From assembly GCF_019966515.1 (NCBI RefSeq), contig NZ_JAIMIB010000008.1, forward strand, positions 1 to 64,000: DNA of 64,000 bases, in the 5' to 3' direction. The translations under genes and the position numbers were made by a program. Position 1 is the first letter of the stretch; the number at the start of each line of letters is the position of its first letter. Source of the stretch: Roseovarius aestuarii (GTDB lineage Bacteria; Pseudomonadota; Alphaproteobacteria; Rhodobacterales; Rhodobacteraceae). Shown one piece after another: positions 4,748 through 41,374 of the stretch. Under the pieces are notes generated by a model. That model was not told the origin of the DNA, searched no databases, and saw only the letters and a list, made by a program, of their open reading frames with translations.

Positions 4748-5806
4748 TTACGAGGTCTCCGTTCCTTCGATCACCGTGCGCAACAGATCGGCGCGGGTGA
4801 TGGCGCCAATGCGGTTGCCGCTGGCGTCGATGATGGCGGCGGGTTGTTCGGTGCCGATGGCGGCGGTGATCAACTCGCCCAGATGGGCGTTTTCGTCAAA
4901 TTCCTGGGCGGTTTCCGCAAGGCTGCCATTGGCGCTTTCAAACTCGGCCAGCGGCTGCATCACCGCATGGGCACGCACCACCTTGAGGCGCGAGATACCG
5001 GCGACGAAATCGGCCACATAGTCATCCGCCGGGTGCATCACGATATCCTCGGGCGTGCCGATCTGCACCACGCGGCCATCGCGCATAATCGCGATCCGGT
5101 CGCCGATGCGCACGGCCTCGTCCAGATCGTGGGTGATGAACACAGTTGTTTTGTTCATGTTGGCAGCAAGCTTCATGAATTCATTCTGCAACTGCCGCCG
5201 GATCAGCGGATCGAGCGCGCTGAAAGGCTCATCCATCAGCAGGATTTCAGGGTCCGCCGCCAGGGCGCGGGCAAGGCCGACGCGCTGCTGCATCCCGCCT
5301 GACAATTCATGGGCAAACTTGTTGCCCCAGGCGGACAGATCCACCATGTCGATGGCTTTTTCAGCAGCATCCATGCGCTGGTTCTTGTTGATACCCCGGA
5401 TTTCCAGCGGCATTGCCACGTTATCCAGCACCGACCGGTGTGGCATCAGCGCGAAATTCTGAAACACCATCGAGATGTGTTCGTTGCGATACTGACGCAG
5501 CGCATCGGGTGCCATCGCCATGATATCCTCGCCATTGACGACGATCTTTCCAGCCGTCGGCTCCAGCAACCGGTTGATGTGTCGGACCAGTGTCGACTTG
5601 CCCGACCCTGAAAGCCCCATGATGCAGAAGATCTCACCGGGGCGGATGTCCATCGTCGCATCGGCGACGCCGACAACGCAGTTGAACCGGTCCAGAACTT
5701 CCTTTTTCGAAATGTCACTGGCGCGGATCTCGGCCAGTGCCTCCTCGGCACGGTTGCCGAAAATCTTCCAGACACCGGCAAGTTCGATTGCTACATCCTG
5801 CGGCAC
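4748..5806 (-). CDS. proV: Betaine/choline-type ABC transporter ATPase (ProV family)
   Basis: ATP-binding subunit of about 352 residues. Walker A is GLSGSGKST, the signature LSGGMQQRVGLARAL and Walker B ILLMDEPFSALD, followed by the switch His in FITHDLDEA. The start is a GTG at 5806, preceded 6 nt upstream by a GGGGA ribosome-binding site; the open frame continues upstream into non-conserved sequence. The C-terminus (about residues 265-352) is a short regulatory tail containing at most one CBS-like segment, shorter than the paired CBS of E. coli ProV. It lies between proX and proW. Confidence 0.9.
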   Translation of the reverse strand: MPQDVAIELAGVWKIFGNRAEEALAEIRASDISKKEVLDRFNCVVGVADATMDIRPGEIFCIMGLSGSGKSTLVRHINRLLEPTAGKIVVNGEDIMAMAPDALRQYRNEHISMVFQNFALMPHRSVLDNVAMPLEIRGINKNQRMDAAEKAIDMVDLSAWGNKFAHELSGGMQQRVGLARALAADPEILLMDEPFSALDPLIRRQLQNEFMKLAANMNKTTVFITHDLDEAVRIGDRIAIMRDGRVVQIGTPEDIVMHPADDYVADFVAGISRLKVVRAHAVMQPLAEFESANGSLAETAQEFDENAHLGELITAAIGTEQPAAIIDASGNRIGAITRADLLRTVIEGTETS

Positions 5807-5826
5807 ATCACGTCCCCTGTTCTGTG

Positions 5827-5854
5827 ATGGGCCGCGCGAAAAGGCGCGGCCCAT
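5827..5854 (-). promoter_or_regulatory. Intercistronic hairpin between proX and proV
   Basis: Perfect 11-bp inverted repeat (ATGGGCCGCGC / GCGCGGCCCAT) with a 6-nt loop. It sits downstream of proX and upstream of proV in the direction of transcription. No U-tract follows it on the minus strand, so it looks more like an mRNA-stabilising or attenuating element that keeps proX expression above proVW than a full terminator. Confidence 0.6.
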
Positions 5855-5867
5855 TGGTTTTGTTGGA

Positions 5868-6824
5868 TCAGAGGCCCAACCAACCGTCCACGCGGTCGGA
5901 ATTGGCTGCAACCCATTCCTTGGCGACATCCGCCGGGTCTTTGCCGCCTTCGATCTGGAAGGCGAAATCCGAAACCGTTTCGCCATCGAGCTGGATATTT
6001 GCCAGCAGATCGGCAATCGCAGGCGAGCGGTCGATCAGTGATTTGGAATAGGCAATTTGCACCTTCTTCAGCGCATCCTCGGTCATGACCGAAGACTTTT
6101 CAAACCAGTCCGGATCGTCCGAGGGCTGGATGGCGATGTATTTTTCCGGGTCGAATGCGGGTTCTTCCAGACGCACGATGTCATACTGGAACCAGATCGC
6201 ATGCGGGCTGTAGCAGTAGAAGGCATAGCCCATGTCTTTCTTGATGCTGTCACCCACGGTTGCGGTCATCACCGCCTGATCCGCGCGGATTGGCTCCATG
6301 AAGGGCATTAAACCGTAGTCGCGCACCTTGATCTCGTTCACGTTGGCCGATGCCCAGCCGGGGGCGCCAATCCAGATCTCACCCTTGCCATTGCCGTCGC
6401 TGTCCATCTTCTCGGCCACTTCCGGGCGGGCCAGATCGAAGATGGAGGTCACGTTATTGGCCTCGGAAAACGCTTTGCTGACGCAAAAGCTCTGCTTGCC
6501 CTCATAGGGCTTGTCCGACAGCACAACGGTGCCTGCCTCATCGACGTATTTCTTGGTAAAGCTCTCCTGATTGGGCAGCCAGACATCGGGGTGCACGTCA
6601 ATGTCACCCTTGCCCTGATCCATTGCCTGGAAGATCGAAGCATTGTTGCCGGGCACCAGATTGGCCTCGCCGCCGATGCGCGTCTCGACCACTTCGGCGA
6701 TCAAATGCGCAATCGCTTGTGCCCCTGTCCAGGCCGGCGCGCCGATATTCACGCTTTCAGCGTGGCTGAGAGAGGCGGTCGCCATAAAGCCCGCAAGGGC
6801 TGTTCCCATGAGTTTCAGTTTCAT
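5868..6824 (-). CDS. proX: Quaternary-amine ABC transporter periplasmic binding protein (ProX/OpuAC family)
   Basis: Exported solute-binding protein of 318 residues. The start is the ATG at 6824, with a GAGGAG box about 8 nt upstream, which gives a clean signal peptide (MKLKLMGTALAGFMATASL, cleaved near SHA-ES). Aromatic residues suited to caging a trimethylammonium group appear in GAPAWTGAQA, HPDVWLPN, GAPGWASAN and SPHAIWFQYD. The first and third are typical of the OpuAC fold. It is the first transporter gene after an alpha/beta hydrolase 69 nt upstream and is separated from proV by a strong hairpin. The exact ligand is unknown. Confidence 0.88.
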   Translation of the reverse strand: MKLKLMGTALAGFMATASLSHAESVNIGAPAWTGAQAIAHLIAEVVETRIGGEANLVPGNNASIFQAMDQGKGDIDVHPDVWLPNQESFTKKYVDEAGTVVLSDKPYEGKQSFCVSKAFSEANNVTSIFDLARPEVAEKMDSDGNGKGEIWIGAPGWASANVNEIKVRDYGLMPFMEPIRADQAVMTATVGDSIKKDMGYAFYCYSPHAIWFQYDIVRLEEPAFDPEKYIAIQPSDDPDWFEKSSVMTEDALKKVQIAYSKSLIDRSPAIADLLANIQLDGETVSDFAFQIEGGKDPADVAKEWVAANSDRVDGWLGL

Positions 6825-6893
6825 TCTTCTTCTCCTCTGTTGTTCCATTCCGTTGATCGGAGTTGGTTCTCTTTATGATTGCATCTAATCGCG

Positions 6894-7697
6894 TTACGAT
6901 AAGGCGTTGTCAGTCTCTTCCGTCAGAAAGTCGTGAACTATCGTATTAAATAGCTCCGGGTTTTCCATATGCGCATTATGTCCACAGCCTGGCATCACCG
7001 CCAGATTGCTGTTGGCGATGCCCTTCCACAGCGCTTCGGGTTGTTGCCAGCCGTAAGAGCGATCCTTGTCACCCCAAACGATCAATGTGGGTTGGGCGAT
7101 ACCGGCCAGCGCTGCGCGCCCGTCCCAGTTTTCCATCGCCGTCAGACCCGCCATCGCCGATGCGGTCGAAACGCTTTCGCCAAGAGCTACGCAGGCGTCA
7201 TAGTCGCGGGCCGTCTCGCCTGCGGTAAACCATGTGGCGGCAATGCGCCGAGCAGTGGGTTTCACGCCTTCCTGGCTCAGGCGTTCGCGTGATTGGTCAA
7301 TCGTCTCGAAACGGTTGGGCAGCGCGCCCAATGGGCCGGTGCCATAGCAAATAAGCAGTGTCACCCGGTCCGGCGCGACCGCGGCCATCTGCTGAACAAT
7401 CATACCGCCCATCGAATGTCCAAGAAGATGAAACCGGTATACGCCCAGATCGTCGAGCAATGCCAGAACCTGCCGCGCATAATCCTCGATCGAAGCTTCG
7501 GCCAGCGCGGCGTGGCTGTCCCCGTAACCCGGCAATTCAGGCGCGATCACGTCGAAATCAGCGCTGAGTGCCTCCAACTGCCGCCGCCACATCGCTGCGC
7601 CACCCAGATAGCCATGCACCAGAACCAAAGGATACCCGCGGCCCTGACGCAGATAGGCCGGTTTTGACAGCTCGACTGTTGATGCAGCGTCCGACAT
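6894..7697 (-). CDS. Alpha/beta-fold hydrolase
   Basis: Protein of 267 residues with the alpha/beta hydrolase layout: oxyanion segment LVHGYLGG, nucleophile elbow GHSMGG, acidic residue in LIVWGDKDRSYGW and catalytic His in GCGHNAHMENP. The family includes esterases, C-C bond hydrolases and lactonases; the substrate is not predictable. It lies upstream of proX on the same strand, 69 nt away, and divergent from a LysR gene, so it may be the first gene of the transporter unit. The ribosome-binding site (GGGAGG) is rather distant from the chosen ATG, about 15 nt. Confidence 0.82.
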   Translation of the reverse strand: MSDAASTVELSKPAYLRQGRGYPLVLVHGYLGGAAMWRRQLEALSADFDVIAPELPGYGDSHAALAEASIEDYARQVLALLDDLGVYRFHLLGHSMGGMIVQQMAAVAPDRVTLLICYGTGPLGALPNRFETIDQSRERLSQEGVKPTARRIAATWFTAGETARDYDACVALGESVSTASAMAGLTAMENWDGRAALAGIAQPTLIVWGDKDRSYGWQQPEALWKGIANSNLAVMPGCGHNAHMENPELFNTIVHDFLTEETDNALS

Positions 7698-7769
7698 GCG
7701 TTTCTGGCATTCCCTCCCACGGGCGGCACATCCTTTGCCGCGCTTCGGAAGTGTAGAACAGTTCGTTTT

Positions 7770-7792
7770 GAAATCGCCAATTCAAAGATTTC
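7770..7792. promoter_or_regulatory. Candidate LysR operator dyad
   Basis: Perfect inverted repeat GAAATC-N11-GATTTC in the 155-bp gap between the divergent hydrolase and LysR genes. Size and placement suit a LysR-type regulator binding site controlling both directions. The assignment rests on symmetry and position only. Confidence 0.4.
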
Positions 7793-7852
7793 ATGAAACT
7801 ATTCTGAATTTGCATAGTTTGTGGTAATTATTCTCACCTGACGGAGAAAACG

Positions 7853-8737
7853 ATGGATCTGAACTGGCTGCGCGATTTCGAATGCCTGGGCCGTACGCTG
7901 AATTTCACGCGCGCGGCAGAAGAGCGGAACATCACCCAATCCGCCTTCAGCCGCCGGATCAAGGCGTTGGAAAGCTGGGTTGGTTTGCCGCTGGTGGACC
8001 GCGCGACATACCCGGTGCGTCTGTCCGAGGCTGGAACGCAATTCCTGCCCGTGGCCAAATCCGCCATCACGGACCTTTCAGAAAGCCGCCAGTTGATCCG
8101 CGATCAGGACAGGGGCGATCGTCAACAGGTCAGGTTCTCGGTTCTGCACACGATTTCAGTGCATTACCTTGCCAACCGCATCGATGCGCTGGAACGTGAA
8201 ATCCCGCAACTCCGCACGCGCGTGATCTCGGACTCGCTTTCAGCCTGCTGCCAGCTTCTGCTCGATGGCGCGGTCGAATTCCTGCTTTGTTACCGCCATG
8301 CCGATATCGCCCCGCAGATCGACGAGGCCGAATTTGCCCGCAAGGACATCATGACCGACCGGCTGATCCCGGTGGCCGAACGGCAGGCGGCGGAACGAAA
8401 CCAATGGGCGCTGCCGGGACAGGAGGTGCGGGACATCCCCTATCTGGCCTATGAACGCAGCACGTTTCTGGGGATTGTCACCGAACATCTGATCGGCAAC
8501 CGGCAGCTTCATCTGGACATGATCTATGTGGACGGGCTGGTCGAGGCGATCAAACGCCGCCTGCTGGCCGGCAGCGGTGTCGCCTGGCTGCCCGAAACCG
8601 CGATCCGCCAAGAGCTTGAGACAGGCAGTGTCGTTGCGGTTGGTGGATCGGAATGGGAAACGCCAATGGCGCTCTCCGTCTACGCGGCCCCCGACCAGCT
8701 TGATACGATCGCAAAAGAAGTCTGGGCGCGGTTTTGA
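7853..8737 (+). CDS. LysR-family transcriptional regulator
   Basis: Regulator of 294 residues with an N-terminal winged helix-turn-helix (residues 1-60; NFTRAAEERNITQSAFSRRIKALE) and a C-terminal periplasmic-binding-protein-like effector domain. A GGAG ribosome-binding site lies 6 nt before the ATG. It is divergent from the hydrolase/proXVW unit, and a 6-11-6 dyad lies between them, so it is likely to control that unit. The inducer is unknown, perhaps the transported amine or a breakdown product. Confidence 0.88.
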   Translation: MDLNWLRDFECLGRTLNFTRAAEERNITQSAFSRRIKALESWVGLPLVDRATYPVRLSEAGTQFLPVAKSAITDLSESRQLIRDQDRGDRQQVRFSVLHTISVHYLANRIDALEREIPQLRTRVISDSLSACCQLLLDGAVEFLLCYRHADIAPQIDEAEFARKDIMTDRLIPVAERQAAERNQWALPGQEVRDIPYLAYERSTFLGIVTEHLIGNRQLHLDMIYVDGLVEAIKRRLLAGSGVAWLPETAIRQELETGSVVAVGGSEWETPMALSVYAAPDQLDTIAKEVWARF

Positions 8738-8852
8738 TTGCCATTCTTTACTGATCGCCGCTGAGCTTTCAAGATTTTGAAATCGAAGCGAAAAATATGC
8801 ACCGATTTGGTGTGAAAACCGCGCTTTCGTCGCAATCTTTCCGCGAAAATCG

Positions 8853-8879
8853 CTTAAACTCAGGCGAAAAACCCATATA
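8853..8879 (+). promoter_or_regulatory. Possible heat-shock (RpoH)-type promoter
   Basis: CTTAAA followed after 13 nt by CCCATATA, resembling the RpoH pattern CTTGAA-N13-CCCCATNT, about 40 nt upstream of the coiled-coil gene. The fourth base of the -35 element deviates from consensus, so this is tentative. Confidence 0.35.
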
Positions 8880-8919
8880 TAGGGGTCACATAAACCGATA
8901 TTACCACGAGGGGAGTAAC

Positions 8920-9996
8920 ATGGCCGATCTTGATGCACAGGTGCGGGAATCTCAGGCACAGGTAAGCGAGGCACAAAGCAAAATCGCCGAACTGACCAGC
9001 AAAATTGAAACCGCGCGGGCCAAGATTAAGGGTGGTGAAGATGCCATACTGGATATCGAGAACGCCTCGCTTGAGGATGTTCATGCCCATACCGAGGTGA
9101 TGAACGCCAATATCGCCGAGCTGATCATGGGGCTGGATGATATCACCGCCGCGTTCTCCAAGGATTTCGACGAGATGCGCAGCAAGACCGGCTGGGAGAG
9201 CTTTGTCGGCATCTTCAGCAGCGCCAAATCCGACAGTATGCGGCAGGATCGGGTGCGTGAGGCCACGATCGACGACAAGCTGCAGGATCTGATCTCGAAA
9301 TCCGACGTGATCGTCAAGCTGCTTGAAGGTCAGCTTGCCATGCTGGAAGAGCAGAAGGTCAAGGTTGAAGAGAACCTGACCGAAACGCTGGACGAACGCG
9401 AGTTCACCGTTGGCGAGTTGGAAACCCTGCGCAGCGACATTCAGGCGATGGACCCGCAGATCATCACGCTGGAAAACAAGATCGCCAACGAGACCGACGC
9501 CGCCGCGCGGACCAAGCTGGAAACCGAACTGGCAGACCTGAACACCAGATATAACGCGATGGTGCAGGACGAGCAGGTCAAGCTGGCCAAATCCCAGACG
9601 CTGGAGCGCTATATCGAGAAGGGCAAGACCTGGATCGACAGCCTGCAGAATCAGGCGGCGACGCAGATGGTGTTGATCAACAAGCTGCAGACCGACACCA
9701 AGCAGCGTGTGGTGCTTTATGATGCCCTGACCAAATCGCTGAAAACCGCGCAGCAGCAGGACGTGGCCCACCGGATCAACGAGATCGGGGTCGAGACCGA
9801 TCAGGAGGCGCAGACCGCCATGGCCGGCATCGGGGCTGCCACCAACAAGAAGATGGCCGACATGCTGGAAGCGCATGAGGATCACATGGTCTTCGCCCGC
9901 GACGTCCTCGAAGCCAAGGCCAAGGCCGACGAACGCTTCGCCCGCCGCTTTGCGCAGATCATCGAGAAGCACGACAAGAACCTTTATGGGGCCTGA
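8920..9996 (+). CDS. Long coiled-coil protein of unknown function
   Basis: Hydrophilic protein of 358 residues with no signal peptide or membrane segment. Heptad-rich, charged coiled coil covers roughly residues 1-45, 115-245 and 260-350. A less helical insert around residues 80-110 contains WESFVGIF. The ATG at 8920 follows a strong GAGGGGAG site; an in-frame upstream start at 8797 has no such site. It is the first gene of a compact rightward cluster with a AAA+ ATPase, and the next gene overlaps its stop (TGATG). Its build is loosely reminiscent of TelA- or PspA-type membrane-associated coiled coils, but I cannot assign it to either family. Confidence 0.8.
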   Translation: MADLDAQVRESQAQVSEAQSKIAELTSKIETARAKIKGGEDAILDIENASLEDVHAHTEVMNANIAELIMGLDDITAAFSKDFDEMRSKTGWESFVGIFSSAKSDSMRQDRVREATIDDKLQDLISKSDVIVKLLEGQLAMLEEQKVKVEENLTETLDEREFTVGELETLRSDIQAMDPQIITLENKIANETDAAARTKLETELADLNTRYNAMVQDEQVKLAKSQTLERYIEKGKTWIDSLQNQAATQMVLINKLQTDTKQRVVLYDALTKSLKTAQQQDVAHRINEIGVETDQEAQTAMAGIGAATNKKMADMLEAHEDHMVFARDVLEAKAKADERFARRFAQIIEKHDKNLYGA

Positions 9997-10256
9997 TGCA
10001 GCGACGCTTGCTCAAGAAGCTTTTGGGAGCAGCCACAGCTCTTTGTCTGATATGCGCTCTGCTATCTTCCAAGATGGACTGGCACTGGTCCGTTGTCGCG
10101 GGGCTGTGGGGGCTGGGTCTGGCGGGCCTGATCTGGGCTTCATGGGATAAGGTGATGCCACAGACGCGCGATGAAACAGCCCGTGCGGCACAGCCAGGGC
10201 TCTACGAAGGCAACCAGTATGATGGCAGTGGCGGAGGGGACAGCAGTGGCAGCTGA
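9996..10256 (+). CDS. Small membrane protein with Gly/Ser-rich tail
   Basis: 86-residue protein with a basic N-terminus (MQRRLLKK) and two closely spaced hydrophobic helices (about residues 9-25 and 30-49). A polar tail ends in a Gly/Ser/Asp low-complexity stretch. The ATG overlaps the previous stop by 1 nt (TGATG), so translation is probably coupled. The next gene starts inside its 3' end. Function is unknown; it could anchor the neighbouring coiled-coil or ATPase proteins at the membrane. Confidence 0.7.
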   Translation: MQRRLLKKLLGAATALCLICALLSSKMDWHWSVVAGLWGLGLAGLIWASWDKVMPQTRDETARAAQPGLYEGNQYDGSGGGDSSGS

Positions 10257-11376
10257 ACATGTCGATCTGCAAAAGGATCACGCCGGTCTGACCGACCTCT
10301 TCGCCAGCCGGCGCTATTTCCGGAAGTTCGAGGGGATTACCGGCCACCTGACCCGTGTCGCAGCGGTCATGCATGCCTCGGGCGAGCTAAGTAAGGACGA
10401 GGTGGAAATTCTCACCACCTATGTGCAGGGGCTCAGTTATACGTTCCGCGCGCTCAGCATGAAATACCTGCTCACCGGGCGGGATGCCGGGCATGCAACC
10501 ACGACGCTGACCATGGATACGCTTGAAAGCGGGTTTCCTGTCTTCAACGAATTGCTGGTCATGGCTAATGACGCACAACAGGCCGACAGGCATCTTTCCA
10601 CCATGCCCGGCCCCGACGCTCTTAAAAAACAGATGGTCGAGCAGATAATCAGCGCGCGTGAAATCCCCACCCGTCTGCAATTCGCGCTGTCGCAACGGCT
10701 CTATTATCAGGAGCTGCAGCGCGGCCATCTCTTCTGGGCACAGAATGATCCGCAAATCCTCTGGCTCGAGGGGCTGGACGAGCGCCGCCGCTATCTGGTG
10801 CACTGGGCGGTCTATGACAGCCAGGTCAACCTGCCCACGGTCTATCTGATGGAGGTCGAGGACGACGGTCGCACGCCGCTCGCCCGTGATCAGCGCCGCT
10901 GGCCCGAATGCCAGGCCCATCTGATGGGGCAGGCGCTTGGTGGGCTGAAGCTTCTGACCATCGCCAGGGGCTTTGACGAGGCGTTTGACGACCTCCACCC
11001 CAAACGCTTGCGCCGTCTGCATCTGGGCCCGATGTACAGCCATGCCTACACCCGCCAGACGGGCCCCATGCGCGACGTCCTGGCCGATGCCCGCGCGCCC
11101 GAGGGGCAGGATTGGGCGCTTGCCTGGACCGACGAGGTGCTGGAAAGCGAGCGGGTGAAGGAAGAACGCTCCGGCTGGTTCGGGACTGTTGAACGCGAGG
11201 TTTTTGCGCTTGATCCTTTTTCGGGTCGCGGTGCTGATACCGGCGCGACCCGCACCGAGCGCGCCGTCATTCTGCCCGAACGCCCCTATCAGGTATTGGC
11301 AGAGCGCAACCCGCCCGGCTTTACCAGCGTGACGAAATACGTGGTTAACCCCAGCGGGCGGGTGCTTAGATATTAG
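10246..11376 (+). CDS. Conserved-looking hypothetical protein in the AAA+ cluster
   Basis: Soluble protein of about 376 residues that I do not recognise. The N-terminal half is helical and rich in hydrophobic heptads, including a YVQGLSYTFRALSMKYLL segment. The C-terminal half is mixed, with WLEGLDERRRYLVHWAVYD and a conserved-looking HLGPMYSHAYTRQTG. No catalytic motif is evident. I chose the GTG at 10246, 7 nt after GGAGGGG; ATGs at 10219 and 10222 would add eight or nine residues. It overlaps the end of the small membrane protein by 11 nt. The AAA+ ATPase begins 66 nt downstream. Confidence 0.75.
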   Translation: MAAEHVDLQKDHAGLTDLFASRRYFRKFEGITGHLTRVAAVMHASGELSKDEVEILTTYVQGLSYTFRALSMKYLLTGRDAGHATTTLTMDTLESGFPVFNELLVMANDAQQADRHLSTMPGPDALKKQMVEQIISAREIPTRLQFALSQRLYYQELQRGHLFWAQNDPQILWLEGLDERRRYLVHWAVYDSQVNLPTVYLMEVEDDGRTPLARDQRRWPECQAHLMGQALGGLKLLTIARGFDEAFDDLHPKRLRRLHLGPMYSHAYTRQTGPMRDVLADARAPEGQDWALAWTDEVLESERVKEERSGWFGTVEREVFALDPFSGRGADTGATRTERAVILPERPYQVLAERNPPGFTSVTKYVVNPSGRVLRY

Positions 11377-11442
11377 ATGACGCATACCGGGCTACGCCTT
11401 CGGCAAGAGTATTTGAAGCAAGATGAAACAAGGGTCTGAGCG

Positions 11443-13377
11443 ATGAGTTTGACGGCTGACACGATGGAACTGCGTGAGGAGGATATCGCCAAGCATTACG
11501 ATGCGGCGGTGGCGATGCTGGATGGATTCGACCATACCCCGCGGATCGCCAAGCCCGAGCATGACGCCCCGAAAGAGCGCTCAAGTGGCATCGGCACCCG
11601 CCGCCGCTTCCGCACCACCACGCCGGGGCTTGTCACCCGCTCCACCGCGCGGCCCGAGGGGGTGCACCTGATCGACCGCATCAGTGCGGCGGACGGTGAT
11701 GACCCGCTGACCTCTCCGCCGCAGGCCACGGTAATGCACAACCTGCGCCGCGCGCTCGCCATCGCGCTGGCCGTGGGTGAAAACTATGCGGACGCGACCG
11801 GGCTTGCCGATCTCAGGCGCAGCAACCTGGCCGGATCTCTGCCCGCCGACCGCAAGACCGAATTCTCGGAACTGATGGGAGCCGAGGCGCTGGCCGTAGC
11901 GCATGTCTTTGCCAATGCCACCGCCTTCCTGCTTGGCCCACATGGCTCGGAAGTCAGTGTCGAGGTGGGCGAGGTCGAAGAGGTGCTGACCGACAATGCG
12001 CAACTGGCCCTGCACGGTGCGCTGTGGGAAATGGATCAGGATATTGCCCGGCACGCGTCGGACGATGTGCGCCTTGTGGCGACGGTGACCGCCTTTGCCG
12101 AGCAACTGATGGAAAAGATCACCCTGCGTGCCCAGAACGCCGCGCATCTGGAGCCGTTCACCAATGCCAGTTGGCGCATTGAGGCCGATGACCTGACGAT
12201 CCGTGGCTTCGACGCCAGCGCCAAGGGCAAATCCTCGACCCTGACGATGACGTTCAAACAGCCGCATGAGGTGGTCGGCAACCATATCGCCAAATACCAG
12301 GCGATGAAGCTGGCCAAGATGCTGATGGCCTATGATTTCGACCGCCGCCTCAACCCTTTCGCCGAACTCGGCGGCTTCATCTTTACCTTCATGGGCGATG
12401 GCAAACCCGGCACCGGCAAGACGACGCTGATCCAGATGATGGCGGGGCTGATTCAGGGCTATTGCCAGAACGCGGGCTACCCCTTCCGTTACCAGAATCT
12501 GAGCACGGAAAGCATCGACAGCTATCAGGGTAAATCCGCCCAGAACGCCAAGGCCTTCATCAACAACGTGCTTGACCCGGGGGTGATCGGCTTCGGCACT
12601 ATCGACGATATCGACCAGCTGGCGGGCAAGCGCGGCGACCGTCAGTCCTCCGCCGGGCAGCTGGAAATCACCGCGGTGCTGATGGAAAGCTTCGCGGGCG
12701 CTAACACCGTCGTGCGCGGCAACTGCACTTTTGGGATGTTCTCGAACTACCCCGAGAATGTCGACGATGCCCTGCGCCAGCGCGCTGGCGCGCGGTTCCT
12801 CGTCGATGGCCCGATCACCCGCGATGACTATATCGACATCCTCTACCTGCTGATGGGTAAGAACCACGATATCCCGCTGGGCGAGCACGAGGTTTACGCC
12901 GCGCAGGAGATCAAGAAGGCCGTCGCCGCGTCTTTTGAGTCGCATTCGAGACCCCACGAAGACGGCCTCTTGCGGGTTTACGAGGAGGTCGACAGGAAAA
13001 TCGGCAAGCTCGATACCATCGCCAAGCTGGGCACCTATCTGAAAGGCATTCAGGAGGCCGATGCGCGTTTCACCGGCCGCGCCATCAAGAACATCACCGA
13101 CGCGGTAAAAGTCCGCGCGATGGATTTCGAGCTGCCGGATGAATGGATGGAAAAGCCCGAGTTGTTCCTGTTCAAACCCTACGATGAGAAAAAGGCGATG
13201 ATCGAAGACCTTCGCCAGCCGATCACGGTCGAGATGGTGATCCAGGAAATCAACCGCTACGCCGATTCAGAATTCCGCTATGCGGACAAATCCGACGAGG
13301 TGGCGATTGAGACTGCGGTGCGCGAGATGGGCCGGATGGAAGAGGCGAAGCGGCGGTATCTGGAGGGGAAGGATTAA
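11443..13377 (+). CDS. AAA+ ATPase of unknown function
   Basis: 644-residue protein. The first 230 residues or so form a non-catalytic helical region. The AAA+ module follows, with Walker A GKPGTGKTT (about residues 320-328), Walker B in GFGTIDDIDQL (about 383-393), a sensor-like SNYPENVDDALRQR with a probable arginine finger (about 434-447), and a helical lid. Such proteins remodel protein complexes or act as motor chaperones. With a coiled-coil protein, membrane proteins and an exported thioredoxin-fold protein as neighbours, it is probably the energy source of the cluster. The start has an AAGG site 9 nt upstream. Family placement beyond AAA+ is not possible from reading alone. Confidence 0.85.
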   Translation: MSLTADTMELREEDIAKHYDAAVAMLDGFDHTPRIAKPEHDAPKERSSGIGTRRRFRTTTPGLVTRSTARPEGVHLIDRISAADGDDPLTSPPQATVMHNLRRALAIALAVGENYADATGLADLRRSNLAGSLPADRKTEFSELMGAEALAVAHVFANATAFLLGPHGSEVSVEVGEVEEVLTDNAQLALHGALWEMDQDIARHASDDVRLVATVTAFAEQLMEKITLRAQNAAHLEPFTNASWRIEADDLTIRGFDASAKGKSSTLTMTFKQPHEVVGNHIAKYQAMKLAKMLMAYDFDRRLNPFAELGGFIFTFMGDGKPGTGKTTLIQMMAGLIQGYCQNAGYPFRYQNLSTESIDSYQGKSAQNAKAFINNVLDPGVIGFGTIDDIDQLAGKRGDRQSSAGQLEITAVLMESFAGANTVVRGNCTFGMFSNYPENVDDALRQRAGARFLVDGPITRDDYIDILYLLMGKNHDIPLGEHEVYAAQEIKKAVAASFESHSRPHEDGLLRVYEEVDRKIGKLDTIAKLGTYLKGIQEADARFTGRAIKNITDAVKVRAMDFELPDEWMEKPELFLFKPYDEKKAMIEDLRQPITVEMVIQEINRYADSEFRYADKSDEVAIETAVREMGRMEEAKRRYLEGKD

Positions 13378-13476
13378 TGAGTACCCTCGAATGTGGGACA
13401 CTTTCGGGTTGGGGATGTCGTGCATTTCCGACCGAATGTAAGATACCCGGCAGCGATAATTGGAAAGTAGGTTACA

Positions 13477-13824
13477 ATGGGCGGTGGTGATGCGCTTAGT
13501 GTGACCTTGGTGTATTTCCTGGGGATACTACCAATACTCATAACCTGGTCTGCAGGCGTTAGACTTGGCAGCAAGTTTGCAACCGGCGAGCATGTGTTGG
13601 TTGCTATGTTATTTCTCTTGGGATTATTGGTTGTGGTATTGTTCCTCACACTCCCAATCAGCACCGCATCTATTATTGCCTTGAGCAAAGATAGCAAATG
13701 GTCCGATGAAGAATCGCGTGCCGAATTCGTAGAGAACGGCTTTTTTGTTCTGGGAGCGTTGTTTGTATTTATTGCAATGGCTTCGGTAGCTGTTGGCTAT
13801 CTACGCGCGAGGAAGCAGTTGTGA
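13477..13824 (+). CDS. Small three-helix membrane protein, atypical composition
   Basis: 115-residue hydrophobic protein with three likely transmembrane helices (about residues 6-25, 37-60 and 86-108) and a charged segment (SKDSKWSDEESRAEF) between the second and third. The coding sequence is visibly more AT-rich than its neighbours and uses codons such as TTA, ATA and GTA that are rare around it. That suggests recent acquisition into the operon. It follows a 99-nt gap after the ATPase, and its stop overlaps the GTG start of the thioredoxin-fold gene. Function unknown. Confidence 0.6.
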   Translation: MGGGDALSVTLVYFLGILPILITWSAGVRLGSKFATGEHVLVAMLFLLGLLVVVLFLTLPISTASIIALSKDSKWSDEESRAEFVENGFFVLGALFVFIAMASVAVGYLRARKQL

Positions 13825-14513
13825 AGCGCTTTAGAGAATCTGATGTGAAGCCTCAAAACCCAATGAGTGTTGCGTTGCCAAGATTGGTGACGGTAACTCT
13901 CATGTTGACGGCATCTGTGGTTGTCGCCGCCGAGCCCCTCACAACCATTCCCCAAACCCCCATCCACGGCTGCCGGGGGGGGAAGGCTAAGCTCTATGAT
14001 GAGTGTCACGCACAGGCGCCGATCTTCGACAAGGCCCTGCGCACCGCGCGGGAGCAGGGGAAGGTCCTTCTGGTCTCCTATGGGGCTGAGTGGTGCATCT
14101 GGTGTCATGTGTTTGACGCATACGTAAAGGGTGAACACAGCCGTTTCATCCATCCCTATTCCGACGAGGAAGACAAGGAACGCTACAACGCCACCATCCA
14201 TGAGCGCGCCGAAAGCGACCCCTCTGGCCCCGCTGCCGATCTGGCCGCGTTCGTGGCCCAAAACTTCGTACTGGTGCATATCGACAGCCGCTATGCGACA
14301 GATGGCTGGGACGTGCTCGACGCTGCCGGGGCCACCGATGGCTACGGCAACTGGCTCCCCTATATCTTCACCACCGATGCCGAGGGGCAATTCGCCGCCG
14401 CGCTGGTCTCTGAGCGCGTCGAGATCCGCCGCGACACCGATGACTGGTTCCGCGGCTATGACCGCGATAGGCTGACGGCTGAGCTATCCCGCATGAAAGA
14501 GGCTGCGCAATGA
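13821..14513 (+). CDS. Exported thioredoxin-fold protein with CxxC motif
   Basis: 230-residue protein with an N-terminal signal peptide (hydrophobic LVTVTLMLTASVVVAA, cleavage near A-EP) and a thioredoxin-like domain. Its redox motif is WCIWC at residues 91-95, followed by His, as in the DsbD-C/DUF255-type thioredoxin-like group. Later aromatic segments (YGNWLPYIF) fit the cis-proline region. It probably acts in the periplasm on disulfides of envelope proteins. The start is taken as GTG 13821, 5 nt after AGGAAG and overlapping the previous stop. ATG 13863 is an alternative that also keeps the signal peptide. The next gene overlaps by 4 nt (ATGA). Confidence 0.78.
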   Translation: MKRFRESDVKPQNPMSVALPRLVTVTLMLTASVVVAAEPLTTIPQTPIHGCRGGKAKLYDECHAQAPIFDKALRTAREQGKVLLVSYGAEWCIWCHVFDAYVKGEHSRFIHPYSDEEDKERYNATIHERAESDPSGPAADLAAFVAQNFVLVHIDSRYATDGWDVLDAAGATDGYGNWLPYIFTTDAEGQFAAALVSERVEIRRDTDDWFRGYDRDRLTAELSRMKEAAQ

Positions 14514-15835
14514 GACGCCTGATCAAATCCGGCCTTATGTTTGGCAATCTGGTGCATGTGGCCTCGCCCGCACTGGTGGAGCGCTATAACCGGGCGCTGA
14601 AACATCTGACGGGAAAAACGACGTCGCTCAGCGATTTTTATGTCGATATTTCAGGCTATTCGCCGGAAGTCGGCCATGAATTGGACGATCCGCTCTACCT
14701 CAATCATGCGGGCGTCAACCGGCAGTTTATCCTGCTGACGACCGAGCAGAAGCGGGCGCCGCTTCTGGACATGAAATTCTCGACCTCTCGCGGCATCCTG
14801 CGGCAGTTCATTGAGGAAAACGAACCTGCGCTTTTTGCCCTGACCGCGCGCGATGCGGTGGCGGGGGAGCTGGTGAATTCGGTTTATGACATGTCGACGC
14901 CCGCGCGGCTTTTTGACATCCGCCGGGTGCGCGTAGAGGCCGACACCGTGGGCGGGGCGCTGAAACAGGCGGATGCGCTGGACGAGAAGGTCAGCCGTTT
15001 CATGAACGAGGAAGACGCCTGGTTTGACGATGTGCTGATTGCCGAGATGATCGGGTTGGCGGGCGAGACCGGGGATGTGGTGCGCAACCCGATTGATTTG
15101 CGCGAAATGAGTTTTGACCAGCGCAATTTCTGGACCGCGCATTTTGGCGGCACCTATCTGTTTCAGGATGTCGACCATCCGGCCCTGATCTCGGGCGCCG
15201 ATCGTGACCACTTTGACGACCTGCCGATCCGATATGCTTTCGATTTGCGTCAGCGCAACCAGATCGCCAAGTTTCTGGAGCTGAACGGGCTGGCCGAGCC
15301 CATTGCCAAGGCGCGGGGTATCGATGCGGGGGCGATCCTGCGGCAGAAAATGGATTTCATTCTGGTCGACGCGCTGGCCGGGCAGGGCGTCGCGCTGAGC
15401 GGCCGGTCGCGTGTCGACATGCGCCGTCTGGCACGGCAGCACGCCCGGCATCTGCCTGAGGAGTTCCACGTTCTGGCCGCGCTGGTCAACTGGGCCGAAA
15501 ACGGTGGACCCTGGCCGCGTGTCGCCTCGGACAGTCCGGCTTATTTCTATACGCTGAGGGCGGCCGATCACCCGGATGCGGACCTTGTGAACATGCTGCT
15601 GAGCGAGCTGAGCCCAAAAGATATCCGGCAGCTCTTTATCTGCCACAAACCGCTGTTTTATGACCGATACGCCACGTGGAGCGCGGAAAAGAAGGATTTT
15701 GTGGTCGAATTTCTGGTGAATGAGTACCAGATAGATAAGGTGGGCACCCGCAGGGCGCTGTTTGGCTTTGAGCCTCCGATGCAGGAGGATGACTTGATCA
15801 CCCGCGTCGGCCCCTGGGGCGCGGTAAGGAGGTAA
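14510..15835 (+). CDS. Uncharacterised 441-residue protein in the AAA+ cluster
   Basis: Soluble, mixed alpha/beta protein that I cannot place in a named family. No signal peptide, membrane helix or nucleotide-binding loop is apparent. Notable segments are an early FGNLVHVASPALVERYNRAL, a central FWTAHFGGTYLFQDVDHPA and a C-terminal LFICHKPLFYDRYATW. It starts with ATG overlapping the preceding stop (ATGA), which implies translational coupling with the exported thioredoxin-fold protein, and ends 3 nt before the next small membrane gene. Confidence 0.78.
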   Translation: MRRLIKSGLMFGNLVHVASPALVERYNRALKHLTGKTTSLSDFYVDISGYSPEVGHELDDPLYLNHAGVNRQFILLTTEQKRAPLLDMKFSTSRGILRQFIEENEPALFALTARDAVAGELVNSVYDMSTPARLFDIRRVRVEADTVGGALKQADALDEKVSRFMNEEDAWFDDVLIAEMIGLAGETGDVVRNPIDLREMSFDQRNFWTAHFGGTYLFQDVDHPALISGADRDHFDDLPIRYAFDLRQRNQIAKFLELNGLAEPIAKARGIDAGAILRQKMDFILVDALAGQGVALSGRSRVDMRRLARQHARHLPEEFHVLAALVNWAENGGPWPRVASDSPAYFYTLRAADHPDADLVNMLLSELSPKDIRQLFICHKPLFYDRYATWSAEKKDFVVEFLVNEYQIDKVGTRRALFGFEPPMQEDDLITRVGPWGAVRR

Positions 15836-15838
15836 GAT

Positions 15839-16105
15839 ATGCTGGCGTTCGGACGTTTGATGTTCTTCGGCTTCATCGCCTTGAGCGTGGTCTATATCTG
15901 CCTGTCGTTCTATTCTCGCTCGGTGCGCCGCAGCAAGCTGAAGACCTGGTGGGAGGAAGAGGGCAGACCGGGCGATCTTGATGATTACGTGGAAAAGGGT
16001 CTGGCGGAATATGACGGCTCGCTCCGGCGCAAGCTGATCCTGGGGGTTTATATCATCCCGATCTGTCTGATCGCGCTGATCATCTACTTGACGAATTTTT
16101 ACTGA
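15839..16105 (+). CDS. Small membrane protein
   Basis: 88-residue protein with an N-terminal helix (residues 3-24, GRLMFFGFIALSVVYICLSF), a charged soluble loop (WWEEEGRPGDLDDYVEKG) and a C-terminal helix (residues 66-86). Both ends are probably in the membrane, with the loop in the cytoplasm. A strong AGGAGG site lies 7 nt before the ATG, and the gene follows its neighbour by only 3 nt. No function recognised. Confidence 0.72.
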   Translation: MLAFGRLMFFGFIALSVVYICLSFYSRSVRRSKLKTWWEEEGRPGDLDDYVEKGLAEYDGSLRRKLILGVYIIPICLIALIIYLTNFY

Positions 16106-16114
16106 GGGATTGCA

Positions 16115-16762
16115 ATGAGATACCTCAAATGGGCGTTCTGGACGATCTTCTGGGTCCTGGTTGCGGTGGTTTTCCACTATACGCTGCCGCAGACCGATAT
16201 CGCGCGGGTAACCGATACCTACGAAAAGCGCATTGATTTTGGCGAGAACTCGATCTTCTGGGCCAGTCCGGATGTGGGCGCGGATCAGCAAACAATCAAT
16301 CGCGATGTGTTCTTCATCCAGACCAGACGCGCCAATGGCCGGGTCATGGTCTATCGCAACGAAGATACGGGCTGGAGCTGGCCGCCCTACTTCAAGTTCG
16401 ATACCTCAAATCTTCAGGCCGAGGCGGCTGATCTGAAATCGGCCTCCGAAGCACCGAAATGGGTGGCGATCAAGCATTACGGCTGGCGTAACGAATTCCT
16501 GTCCATCTTTCCCAATGCGGTGGGCGTGCGCGCCGTGTCGGGGCCGGATGTCAGCACCGGCATTCCGTGGCTGAATATTGTGATTATCGCCTTGTTTCTC
16601 GCCCTCTGCTTTTTCATCTGGCGGATGTGGCACCGATTTCGCGCGGCGCGTCTGGATCCGGTGATGGATGGCATTCAGCAGGGCGTGGAATCGGCGGGCG
16701 ACAGCCTGTCAGACCGGCGGTCCCGGGTCAGAAAGTGGCTGGACACATGGCGTGCGAAGTAA
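16115..16762 (+). CDS. DUF1523 family membrane protein
   Basis: 215-residue protein matching what I know of DUF1523. It has an N-terminal helix (residues 5-25), a periplasmic-type domain with FGENSIFWASPDVG, NRDVFFIQT and MVYRNEDTGWSWPPYFKF, then HYGWRNEFLSIFPNA, a second helix (about 150-170) and a basic cytoplasmic tail. The family is conserved in alphaproteobacteria but has no known role. It starts 9 nt after the previous gene, so it belongs to the same transcription unit. Confidence 0.85.
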   Translation: MRYLKWAFWTIFWVLVAVVFHYTLPQTDIARVTDTYEKRIDFGENSIFWASPDVGADQQTINRDVFFIQTRRANGRVMVYRNEDTGWSWPPYFKFDTSNLQAEAADLKSASEAPKWVAIKHYGWRNEFLSIFPNAVGVRAVSGPDVSTGIPWLNIVIIALFLALCFFIWRMWHRFRAARLDPVMDGIQQGVESAGDSLSDRRSRVRKWLDTWRAK

Positions 16763-16810
16763 AGATCGGGTCAGACAGCCCTGTCGTTTTGGAACATGGA
16801 AGAAGCCTGC

Positions 16811-17371
16811 ATGACAAAACTTGAAACAGCCCTTGCCGCAATTGACGAGGCCAATGCCAAAGACCCAAACGTGGTCGAGGGCACACCCGATGCGGCCCTT
16901 TACGGGCAGCGGATGAGCCGCGAGCTGGAGCGGCTTTTCCCGCAGGCAAGCGACGCGCTGAAAATCGCATCACGAGGTCAGCATATCGAGCGCTGGGTGC
17001 TGAAAAGGGTGGATTATCCCGAGGGCCGCGAAGGGTATCTGACATGGCGGCGTGATCTGGCAGAGCATCATGCGAAACGTGTCGGGACGATCATGCAGGA
17101 TGCCGGGTATGATGCCGGACAGATCGAGGCCGCTGGCCGGATGCTGCGCAAGGAAGGGATCAAGCGTGATGCAGAGGTTCAGGCGCTTGAGGATGTGATC
17201 TGCTTCACCTTTCTGAAATGGTACTTCGAACCCTTCGCCGTAAAGCACTCGCCGGAAAAAGTATTACGGATCGTGCAGAAAACCGCGCGTAAGATGTCGG
17301 CAGAAGGGCGCGCGCGGGTGTTGAAGGAATTCGATCTGCCCAGCGAGTTTGCACAGGCATTCGGGACATGA
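16811..17371 (+). CDS. DUF4202 family protein
   Basis: 186-residue soluble protein matching DUF4202. It has an N-terminal IDEANAKDPN, histidine motifs in SRGQHIERW and DLAEHHAKR, and the diagnostic RDAEVQALEDVICFTFL. The histidine/aspartate pattern resembles HD-type helical proteins, but no activity is established. The ATG at 16811 has a GGAAGAAG site 5 nt upstream; an in-frame ATG at 16796 would add five residues. It lies 48 nt after the DUF1523 gene and is followed by a CbiX-like chelatase gene, so it may belong to either unit. Confidence 0.85.
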   Translation: MTKLETALAAIDEANAKDPNVVEGTPDAALYGQRMSRELERLFPQASDALKIASRGQHIERWVLKRVDYPEGREGYLTWRRDLAEHHAKRVGTIMQDAGYDAGQIEAAGRMLRKEGIKRDAEVQALEDVICFTFLKWYFEPFAVKHSPEKVLRIVQKTARKMSAEGRARVLKEFDLPSEFAQAFGT

Positions 17372-40955: not shown

Positions 40956-41330
40956 ATGGTGTCATGCTGTATCAACTAGCCCGGAAGCCGCAGTTCAGGT
41001 TTCGCGCCGCGCGAAAACAAGGCCGCCGCGCGTCGCGGGTCTGTCCGTAAGGACCGGCGATTTGGAGGATAAAGCGCCCACCAGTGCAATTGGGCAGCCA
41101 TCCCGCAGTTGGGCGATCTGCGGCTTCATTTCAATGTCTGCTCGCCGTCGACACCAACCGCGACCTTTCCATCTAACTCTCGTATGATCCCGGCATGGTT
41201 TCCCGAAACAGGGTAATCCCGCTGTGGCGCAAAGATTGGTGCCTAATTGCGAACAATTTCATCGCGGTTACCGCCAGGACGCTTTAACGATTGACGTGAC
41301 AGCGACCCGGCCTTAACCAGTTCCGAACCC
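40956..41330. other. Gap between lnt and the metK riboswitch
   Basis: 375 bp with no convincing reading frame. The first 90 bases are very GC-rich (GCCGCCGCGCG repeats) and may end lnt transcription. The last 90 contain a TTGACG at 41291 that could be the -35 of metK, but no good -10 follows. Confidence 0.4.
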
Positions 41331-41374
41331 CGTCACAACGGCTTCCTGGCGTGACGGTTAACTTTAATGGAGCG
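41331..41374 (+). ncRNA. SAM/SAH riboswitch upstream of metK
   Basis: CGTCAC (41331-41336) pairs with GTGACG (41351-41356) around the conserved loop AACGGCTTCCTGGC. The following AATGGAGCG contains the metK ribosome-binding GGAG and can pair back with the GGCTTCC loop as a pseudoknot. This matches the Rhodobacterales SAM/SAH riboswitch as I know it, both in sequence and in position. Binding of S-adenosylmethionine would sequester the GGAG and lower metK translation. Confidence 0.92.

Follow-up and report, generated by a model that had tools for sequence, protein, structure and literature searches.

Four genes in the window, by which we mean the whole 64,000-nucleotide stretch of Roseovarius aestuarii DNA analysed here (NCBI RefSeq assembly GCF_019966515.1, contig NZ_JAIMIB010000008.1, positions 1 to 64,000), form a single conserved unit on one strand with a membrane module behind it. 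They encode a coiled-coil protein (cc), a protein designated p401, an AAA+ ATPase and a member of the family DUF6638. We tentatively propose, with a little under an even chance of being right, that this operon encodes a cytosolic AAA+ protein-remodelling machine in which the ATPase has three dedicated partners. The proposal is based on the constant order and strand of the core genes, the absence of cc and DUF6638 where the ATPase is missing, and the existence of empty sites. It is further based on the invariant Walker A motif and YQG pore-loop position of the ATPase together with the slow evolution of cc and the ATPase, on the interchange of DUF1523 and DUF2333 in a module that spans the membrane whereas the core does not, and on an upstream motif conserved in both the Rhodobacterales-type and the Rhizobiales-type clade.

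The first-pass annotation of this DNA had pointed to the coiled-coil protein and the ATPase as a pair and suggested a gene-neighbourhood comparison, and this comparison came out for conserved linkage, the core keeping its order and strand across Alphaproteobacteria and in Vibrio, which is more than chance. In 40 fetched loci, which are Rhodobacterales picked for diversity, the order cc, p401, ATPase, DUF6638, tm3 (a small membrane protein) and DUF1523 on one strand was kept in all 40 for the genes present in the stretch; one locus (L058) has no cc in its stretch, and another (L054) no detectable tm3, so that tm3 sits between DUF6638 and DUF1523 in 39 of the 40. A second set of 80 named loci came from a collection scan that listed at least 575 ATPase relatives, and covers, by sequence titles, Rhodobacterales, Hyphomicrobiales, Hellea/Robiginitomaculum and Aestuariispira. 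All four core genes are present in 73 of these, with order and strand kept in 73/73; six of the other seven loci are truncated by contig ends, and L110 has no DUF6638. Some loci come from one genome sampled twice (L054 and L117; L059 and L108). Profile searches of 80 genomes from the order in which the ATPase is missing, or leaves a mere trace, found cc in none and DUF6638 in none. This set leaves out three more negatives and includes the two genomes with weak partial ATPase matches (G039 and G066). An empty result of such a search is not proof by itself: the DUF6638 profile detects the family in core-carrying genomes, whereas the cc profile had no positive control in the same search. Two same-genus pairs show the site without the core: from the flank to tm3-DUF1523 the distance is approximately 250 bases in the core-less genome G120 and approximately 6.3 kb in G091, which has the core; in G070 approximately 2.7 kb of unmatched DNA takes the core's place, while tm3-DUF1523 and both flanks are shared with G002. 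Because core-less genomes, including these two empty sites, keep tm3-DUF1523, we consider the core to be the unit and tm3-DUF1523 to be either its partner or an independent neighbour.

In the window, the open reading frame (ORF) list gives ten rightward ORFs between positions 8920 and 17371, with gene overlaps at 9994-9998 (TGATG) and 14510-14513 (ATGA), which agrees with the compact cluster described in the first pass. The features, all on the forward strand, are as follows.

8850 to 8885, +: promoter-like stretch, with CTTAAACTC from 8853 and CCCATATAT from 8872, 40-67 bases 5' of cc
8920 to 9996, +: cc, coiled-coil protein of 358 amino acids, core gene 1; weak coiled-coil Pfam matches only
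9996 to 10256, +: small membrane protein, passenger in the cc/p401 slot; no counterpart in 130 operon loci
10222 to 11376, +: p401, approximately 384 amino acids, core gene 2; probable start placed from relatives, the ORF (401 codons) opening at 10171
11443 to 13377, +: AAA+ ATPase of 644 amino acids, core gene 3; Pfam AAA, 47 bits
13477 to 13824, +: second small membrane protein, passenger in the ATPase/DUF6638 slot; no counterpart in the 130 loci
13821 to 14513, +: Thioredoxin_7 protein, passenger; signal-like N-terminus and WCIWC, true start probably 13863
14510 to 15835, +: DUF6638 (PF20343), core gene 4; 752.9 bits, E 1.4e-226
15839 to 16105, +: tm3, membrane protein of 88 amino acids between DUF6638 and DUF1523; membrane module, Rhodobacterales version
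16115 to 16762, +: DUF1523 membrane protein, membrane module; Pfam, 235.8 bits
16796 to 17371, +: DUF4202 protein, neighbour only; Pfam, 220.7 bits, near the operon in one of 130 other loci (L055)

The Pfam matches bear out the earlier naming of DUF1523 and the more cautious one of DUF4202. For cc, p401 and the small membrane ORFs of the window no Pfam family scored above its cut-off, and an NCBIfam scan of the window proteins added nothing above cut-offs. The cluster had been taken as one set, and of this the four-gene core with its membrane module stands. The 130 operon loci outside the window, some of them short, contain the thioredoxin in no case, the two small membrane proteins in 0 and 0 cases and DUF4202 once; these four are passengers or neighbours and not part of the core. 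Among the membrane proteins counted as members, tm3 and DUF1523 do belong behind the core, and the ORFs at 9996-10256 and 13477-13824 do not.

The ATPase matches Pfam AAA (PF00004) with 47 bits against a cut-off of 21.2 at residues 320-453. Its Walker A motif GxPGTGKT (G320, P322, G323, T324, G325, K326 and T327) is invariant in 21 sequences and likewise in 10 sequences that include Vibrio. The pore-loop position Y361-Q362-G363 is invariant from Rhodobacterales to Vibrio and aligns by profile with the pore-loop 1 YxG of i-AAA and VCP-like ATPases; among PDB sequences, an i-AAA ATPase domain matches best. In Walker B, D388-D389 is invariant in the 21-sequence and Vibrio sets, with Asp as the second acidic residue instead of the Glu of hhhhDE. 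The protein resembles classical AAA unfoldases (FtsH/i-AAA, VCP-like and proteasomal RPT) in Walker A, in the aromatic-x-Gly and, judged by eye, in a sensor-1-like region and an Arg-rich ALRQRAGAR stretch. It differs from them by its own N-terminal region of approximately 290 residues, the DD of Walker B, the lack of a fused protease and the constant company of cc, p401 and DUF6638. Mean column identity is 82% for cc (21 sequences), 68% for the ATPase and 62% each for p401 and DUF6638; the first two thus evolve most slowly. Identity of cc is 70-80% to 20 distant relatives of the order, 44% to Sinorhizobium meliloti and 38% to Vibrio. SMc02733, a gene of S. meliloti reported from a ChvI DNA-binding screen (PMC3687685), may be this ATPase, as gene order and locus-tag numbering suggest; this is a guess and was not used as evidence.

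For p401, no Pfam match was found at E <= 1 in the window protein, and 63 members gave scattered weak matches only. No solved relative was detected by sequence, and a Foldseek search of the PDB was empty at E <= 0.001. The predicted model (predicted local distance difference test, pLDDT, 89.7) has the element order b-b-a-a-b-b in its C-terminal part, and residues ~185-348 align in VIA-align with several families at Z 3.7-4.8, which is below the level of kinship; these families (urate oxidase, dihydroneopterin aldolase, PTPS, GTP cyclohydrolase I and QueF) belong to the T-fold enzymes. The element order is what p401 may share with them, whereas it has an additional helical N-terminal half, resembling PhoU- or BAR-like helices at Z <5 (VIA-align), and no active site was identified. 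Both resemblances, taken from the model, are a hint only. The protein of 441 residues that the first pass had left unplaced is present and can be placed, since it matches the DUF6638 profile over the profile's full length (PF20343, 752.9 bits). Its model (pLDDT 85.4) gave no significant match: Foldseek detected nothing in the PDB at E <= 0.001, and VIA-align a single row at Z 2.1. A missing structural match of p401 or DUF6638 is not proof of a new fold. DUF6638 is a family without an assigned role and was not named in the literature searched.

Behind the core, DUF1523 and DUF2333 substitute for each other: among the 73 complete named loci, 50 have DUF1523 and 23 DUF2333, never both and never neither, tm3-DUF1523 being the version of the Rhodobacterales and DUF2333 that of the Rhizobiales. 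Among named loci, a membrane-like stretch was found in tm3 in 48/48, in DUF1523 in 50/51 and in DUF2333 in 24/24, whereas the counts for the core were 1/78 for cc, 2/79 for p401, 11/79 for the ATPase and 0/75 for DUF6638. A simple hydropathy test of the core proteins from the window, S. meliloti and Vibrio detected no membrane-spanning stretch in any of the four, so that the envelope-stress machine suggested in the first pass is not borne out; the membrane module, and a dyad shared with DUF2852 genes (see below), lend weak support to a role in envelope stress. DUF1523 occurs in 27 of 27 core-carrying genomes, as a single copy in 23, and tm3 accompanies it in seven of ten fetched DUF1523 loci from core-less genomes. 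Judged by their titles, the publications that name DUF1523 or DUF2333 deal with other topics.

Upstream regions of cc were collected from 125 loci. An ungapped motif reached 17.3 bits in 92 Rhodobacterales-type sequences, compared with ~7 in three shuffled runs, and 24.9 bits in 29 Rhizobiales-type sequences, compared with ~9 after shuffling; its distance to cc is similar in both clades and in the promoter-like stretch of the window. Within the motif, a dyad ATGTAA...TnACAT is present in 36 of the 92 distinct sequences (0.04 expected from simple shuffles). The exact pattern GATGTAA-N7-TNACAT stands 5' of cc in 32 of 90 core-carrying genomes, namely 6 of 10 picked after the motif had been seen and 26 of 80 further ones, and a reversed control pattern was found in none of the 170 genomes searched. 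From the genome searches 70 dyad site loci were fetched, some of them representing both strands, or a pair of sites, in the same region. Twenty-eight, L221 and L224 among them, adjoin one gene cluster, which is DUF2852 in the two checked with an RDD gene next in each, 22 lie 5' of cc, and nine reach the start codon of a gene that is a nitroreductase in the single case inspected. Two more were assigned by eye: one lies 5' of a tm3-like ORF and DUF1523 in a genome that lacks the core, the other 5' of an RpoH-like gene. The sites at DUF2852, seen in many Rhodobacterales including core-less genomes, perhaps mark an undescribed regulon. A DUF2852 protein is reported to be reduced in a Brucella envelope mutant (PMC6377625).

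The motif was compared with the sites of known regulators. Control by RpoH (sigma-32), first suggested by a -10-like CCATAT, was rejected: an RpoH-dependent promoter has TTG in its -35 element (PMC3441632), and this conserved TTG is missing from CTTAAA in the window, from the Rhodobacterales consensus GATGTAAAT and from the Rhizobiales sequence TTTCAATC. The CenR site is a direct repeat, TGA-N8-TGA (PMC9275681), and the GATGTAA...TNACAT dyad, compared by eye only, looks unlike it. A PpsR-type site was discarded as well, its spacing in PMC4344238 being different from that of the dyad.

The junction between the ATPase and DUF6638 is a variable cargo slot. In the named loci it exceeds 250 bp in 42/51 of the Rhodobacterales type and 12/24 of the Rhizobiales type; corresponding counts are 19/55 and 2/23 for cc-p401 and 7/55 and 3/23 for p401-ATPase. 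Junctions towards the membrane module never exceed this length (DUF6638-tm3 0/48, tm3-DUF1523 0/48, DUF6638-DUF2333 0/24). The 40 fetched loci gave 30/40 for ATPase-DUF6638, 14/39 for cc-p401, 7/40 for p401-ATPase, and 0/39 for both DUF6638-tm3 and tm3-DUF1523. Slots longer than 250 bp hold 111 ORFs, 98 of them co-directional with the operon and 54 of these 98 with a membrane-like stretch; 62 of the 111 are singletons in clustering. Slot and flank ORFs were chosen by length, and some are not genes. We scanned 97 slot proteins, that is, 94 of the 98 (at least 75 residues) and three from the window, whose cargo is the small membrane protein beside cc, and the second one with the thioredoxin beside DUF6638. 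Pfam recognised DUF559 nucleases (7), Phd/YefM antitoxins (3), PIN (2), PIN_10 (1), DUF2971 (2), ParE (1), Fic (1) and a putative AbiC (1); summed over the rows, at most 22 of the 97 have a family and at least 75 have none. The same proteins matched 22 PADLOC models, the largest with seven members. In contrast, 97 flanking proteins matched four PADLOC models and contained thymidine kinase, desaturases, flagellar and metabolic families; of their 55 Pfam families 25 are listed, and none of these is a toxin-antitoxin family. Two insertions were seen besides: in L058 (G170) the p401-ATPase junction contains an ImuB/DnaE2-like cassette, made up of a polymerase gene of the impB/mucB/samB family and one of the DNA polymerase III alpha type, and the ATPase/DUF6638 slot of S. 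meliloti (L099) contains an endonuclease-domain gene and an ISRm16 transposase.

Regarding distribution, 115 of the 196 genomes from the window's order gave an ATPase match, and approximately 112 of them contain a whole gene; G039 and G066 are weak partial matches, G123 has fragments only, and in G137 the gene is whole but split across two contigs. Outside the family the core is sparse: among 249 genomes of the phylum DUF6638 occurs in 18, of which ten belong to the window's family. The four core genes adjoin in S. meliloti and in two of four Vibrio megaplasmids, the two that were inspected, and protein comparison confirmed these neighbours as relatives of all four core proteins. A further family of the class has them side by side in one genus (four of the seven genomes), and so does a single genome from a different class. 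For the ATPase and for DUF6638, trees were made with manually selected sequences (from 32 among the 80 named loci, the window, S. meliloti, Vibrio and the other-class genome) and read without support values; they are mostly in line with the orders, with apparent transfers in Roseibium and in the other-class genome. The Vibrio megaplasmids (~0.9 Mb; L097/L098) carry an mfd gene (transcription-repair coupling factor) 3' of the core.

In the remodelling machine that we propose, a ring of the ATPase would thread or disassemble assemblies of cc, p401 and DUF6638 would serve as adaptor or scaffold, and the membrane module may, under stress, link the whole machine with the inner membrane. Genes in the slot would be passengers that use the operon promoter and not working parts. 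Several observations weigh against this proposal. The role of cc as substrate is drawn solely from linkage and conservation, and the DD of Walker B in place of DE makes robust hydrolysis by the ATPase less than certain. DUF1523 is present in 73 of the 80 core-less genomes, so that tm3-DUF1523 may be a neighbour and not a partner. L110 (Roseovarius sp. ZX-A-9) has cc-p401-ATPase with no DUF6638 found over 7 kb; all other long named loci have the complete core. The ATPase is rare outside the family (1/237 other genomes of the class at E <= 1e-10). No exact dyad lies at cc in 58 of the 90 core-carrying genomes, the dyad occurs somewhere in 21 of the 80 core-less genomes, and it is not matched exactly in the window's own genome, where CTTAAACTC...CCCATATAT stands in its place. 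Finally, the nameable slot cargo resembles conflict genes and fits the alternative discussed next.

It is possible, though unlikely, that the operon is an anti-phage or plasmid-related conflict system, in which the core senses or unfolds invader proteins and the slot holds exchangeable effector or addiction genes. The slot proteins include nucleases, toxin-antitoxin and candidate-defence families with 22 PADLOC models against four in the flanks, the core is patchy (~112 of 196 genomes of the order), and it turns up on megaplasmids of Vibrio and in a single genome from a different class. However, at least 75 of the 97 slot proteins have no Pfam family, the core trees mostly follow the orders, the flanks are ordinary metabolism among the families listed, and cc is, in our judgement, unusually conserved for a defence protein. 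A scan of IMG/VR viral contigs returned 54 pattern matches and no relative. The core proteins match PADLOC-DB 2.0.0 only with generic AAA scores for the ATPase (TRIP13 E 1.9e-4, IetA E 0.013, C3a230 E 0.072) and weak coiled-coil scores for cc (LmuB E 3e-4, REase_II E 0.012); p401 and DUF6638 matched no model at E <= 1. Type I restriction-modification and BREX are defence loci with embedded accessory genes, and the operon resembles them in its conserved core with changing cargo at fixed interior junctions. It differs from them in that its core has no restriction, methylation or BREX gene, is absent from the PADLOC models and lies between ordinary flanks. We consider it doubtful that the operon is an undescribed modular conflict system, in which a slow-evolving AAA+ core would act as sensor or unfoldase, with two of its three partners having no fold relative found, with a fixed slot for exchangeable effectors of the toxin-antitoxin, nuclease and membrane types and, in many species, with an operator shared with DUF2852 genes.

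An improbable alternative is a distant branch of the TelA/Ter stress network, with cc as a diverged TelA-like coiled coil and the ATPase as its dedicated remodeller. Like TelA (PF05816), cc is a coiled coil of similar length with a similar WExxxG motif, the short stretch around which gives the best profile-profile match of the two proteins, and the genome has a genuine TelA elsewhere. Significant sequence similarity was absent, however, from profile-profile and hidden Markov model searches with reversed-sequence controls: HHalign, run on a cc alignment of 78 sequences after removal of over-long ORFs by length, gave a probability of 3%, and HMMER at best E 0.099 in either direction. Coiled coils reach such scores by chance. 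TelA was not matched in Pfam scans of the window cc at E <= 1 or of 21 members at E <= 0.01, and the literature searched contained nothing that joins TelA with DUF1523.

The earlier suggestion of an envelope redox machine, in which the thioredoxin would be the periplasmic arm of the cytosolic ATPase and coiled coil, is very improbable: the exported CxxC thioredoxin-fold protein itself was correctly recognised (Thioredoxin_7, 31.7 bits against a cut-off of 27, signal-like N-terminus, WCIWC), and its gene overlaps DUF6638 at ATGA, but its absence from all 130 other operon loci refutes a conserved arrangement, and its homologues in two of 197 other genomes of the family do not adjoin core genes.

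Outside the operon, the region left of the cluster (4748-8737) contains, by eye, an ABC (ATP-binding cassette) ATPase and binding protein of a transporter and an alpha/beta hydrolase-like gene, as well as a LysR-like regulator; the hydrolase-like and LysR-like genes are shared only with L055 among the 130 loci. An S-adenosylmethionine/S-adenosylhomocysteine (SAM/SAH) riboswitch is located at 41327-41374 (58.4 bits).

The core is found in many marine and soil bacteria as a unit with changing small extra genes inside, and although one collection alone encodes at least 575 confirmed relatives of its ATPase, DUF6638 has remained without mention in the literature searched. In genera such as Sinorhizobium, Ruegeria and Sulfitobacter, which hold the core, it offers a defined four-gene unit for deletion. 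The interior slot, with its nameable cargo unlike the flanks, provides a case for asking why operons become landing sites of foreign genes.

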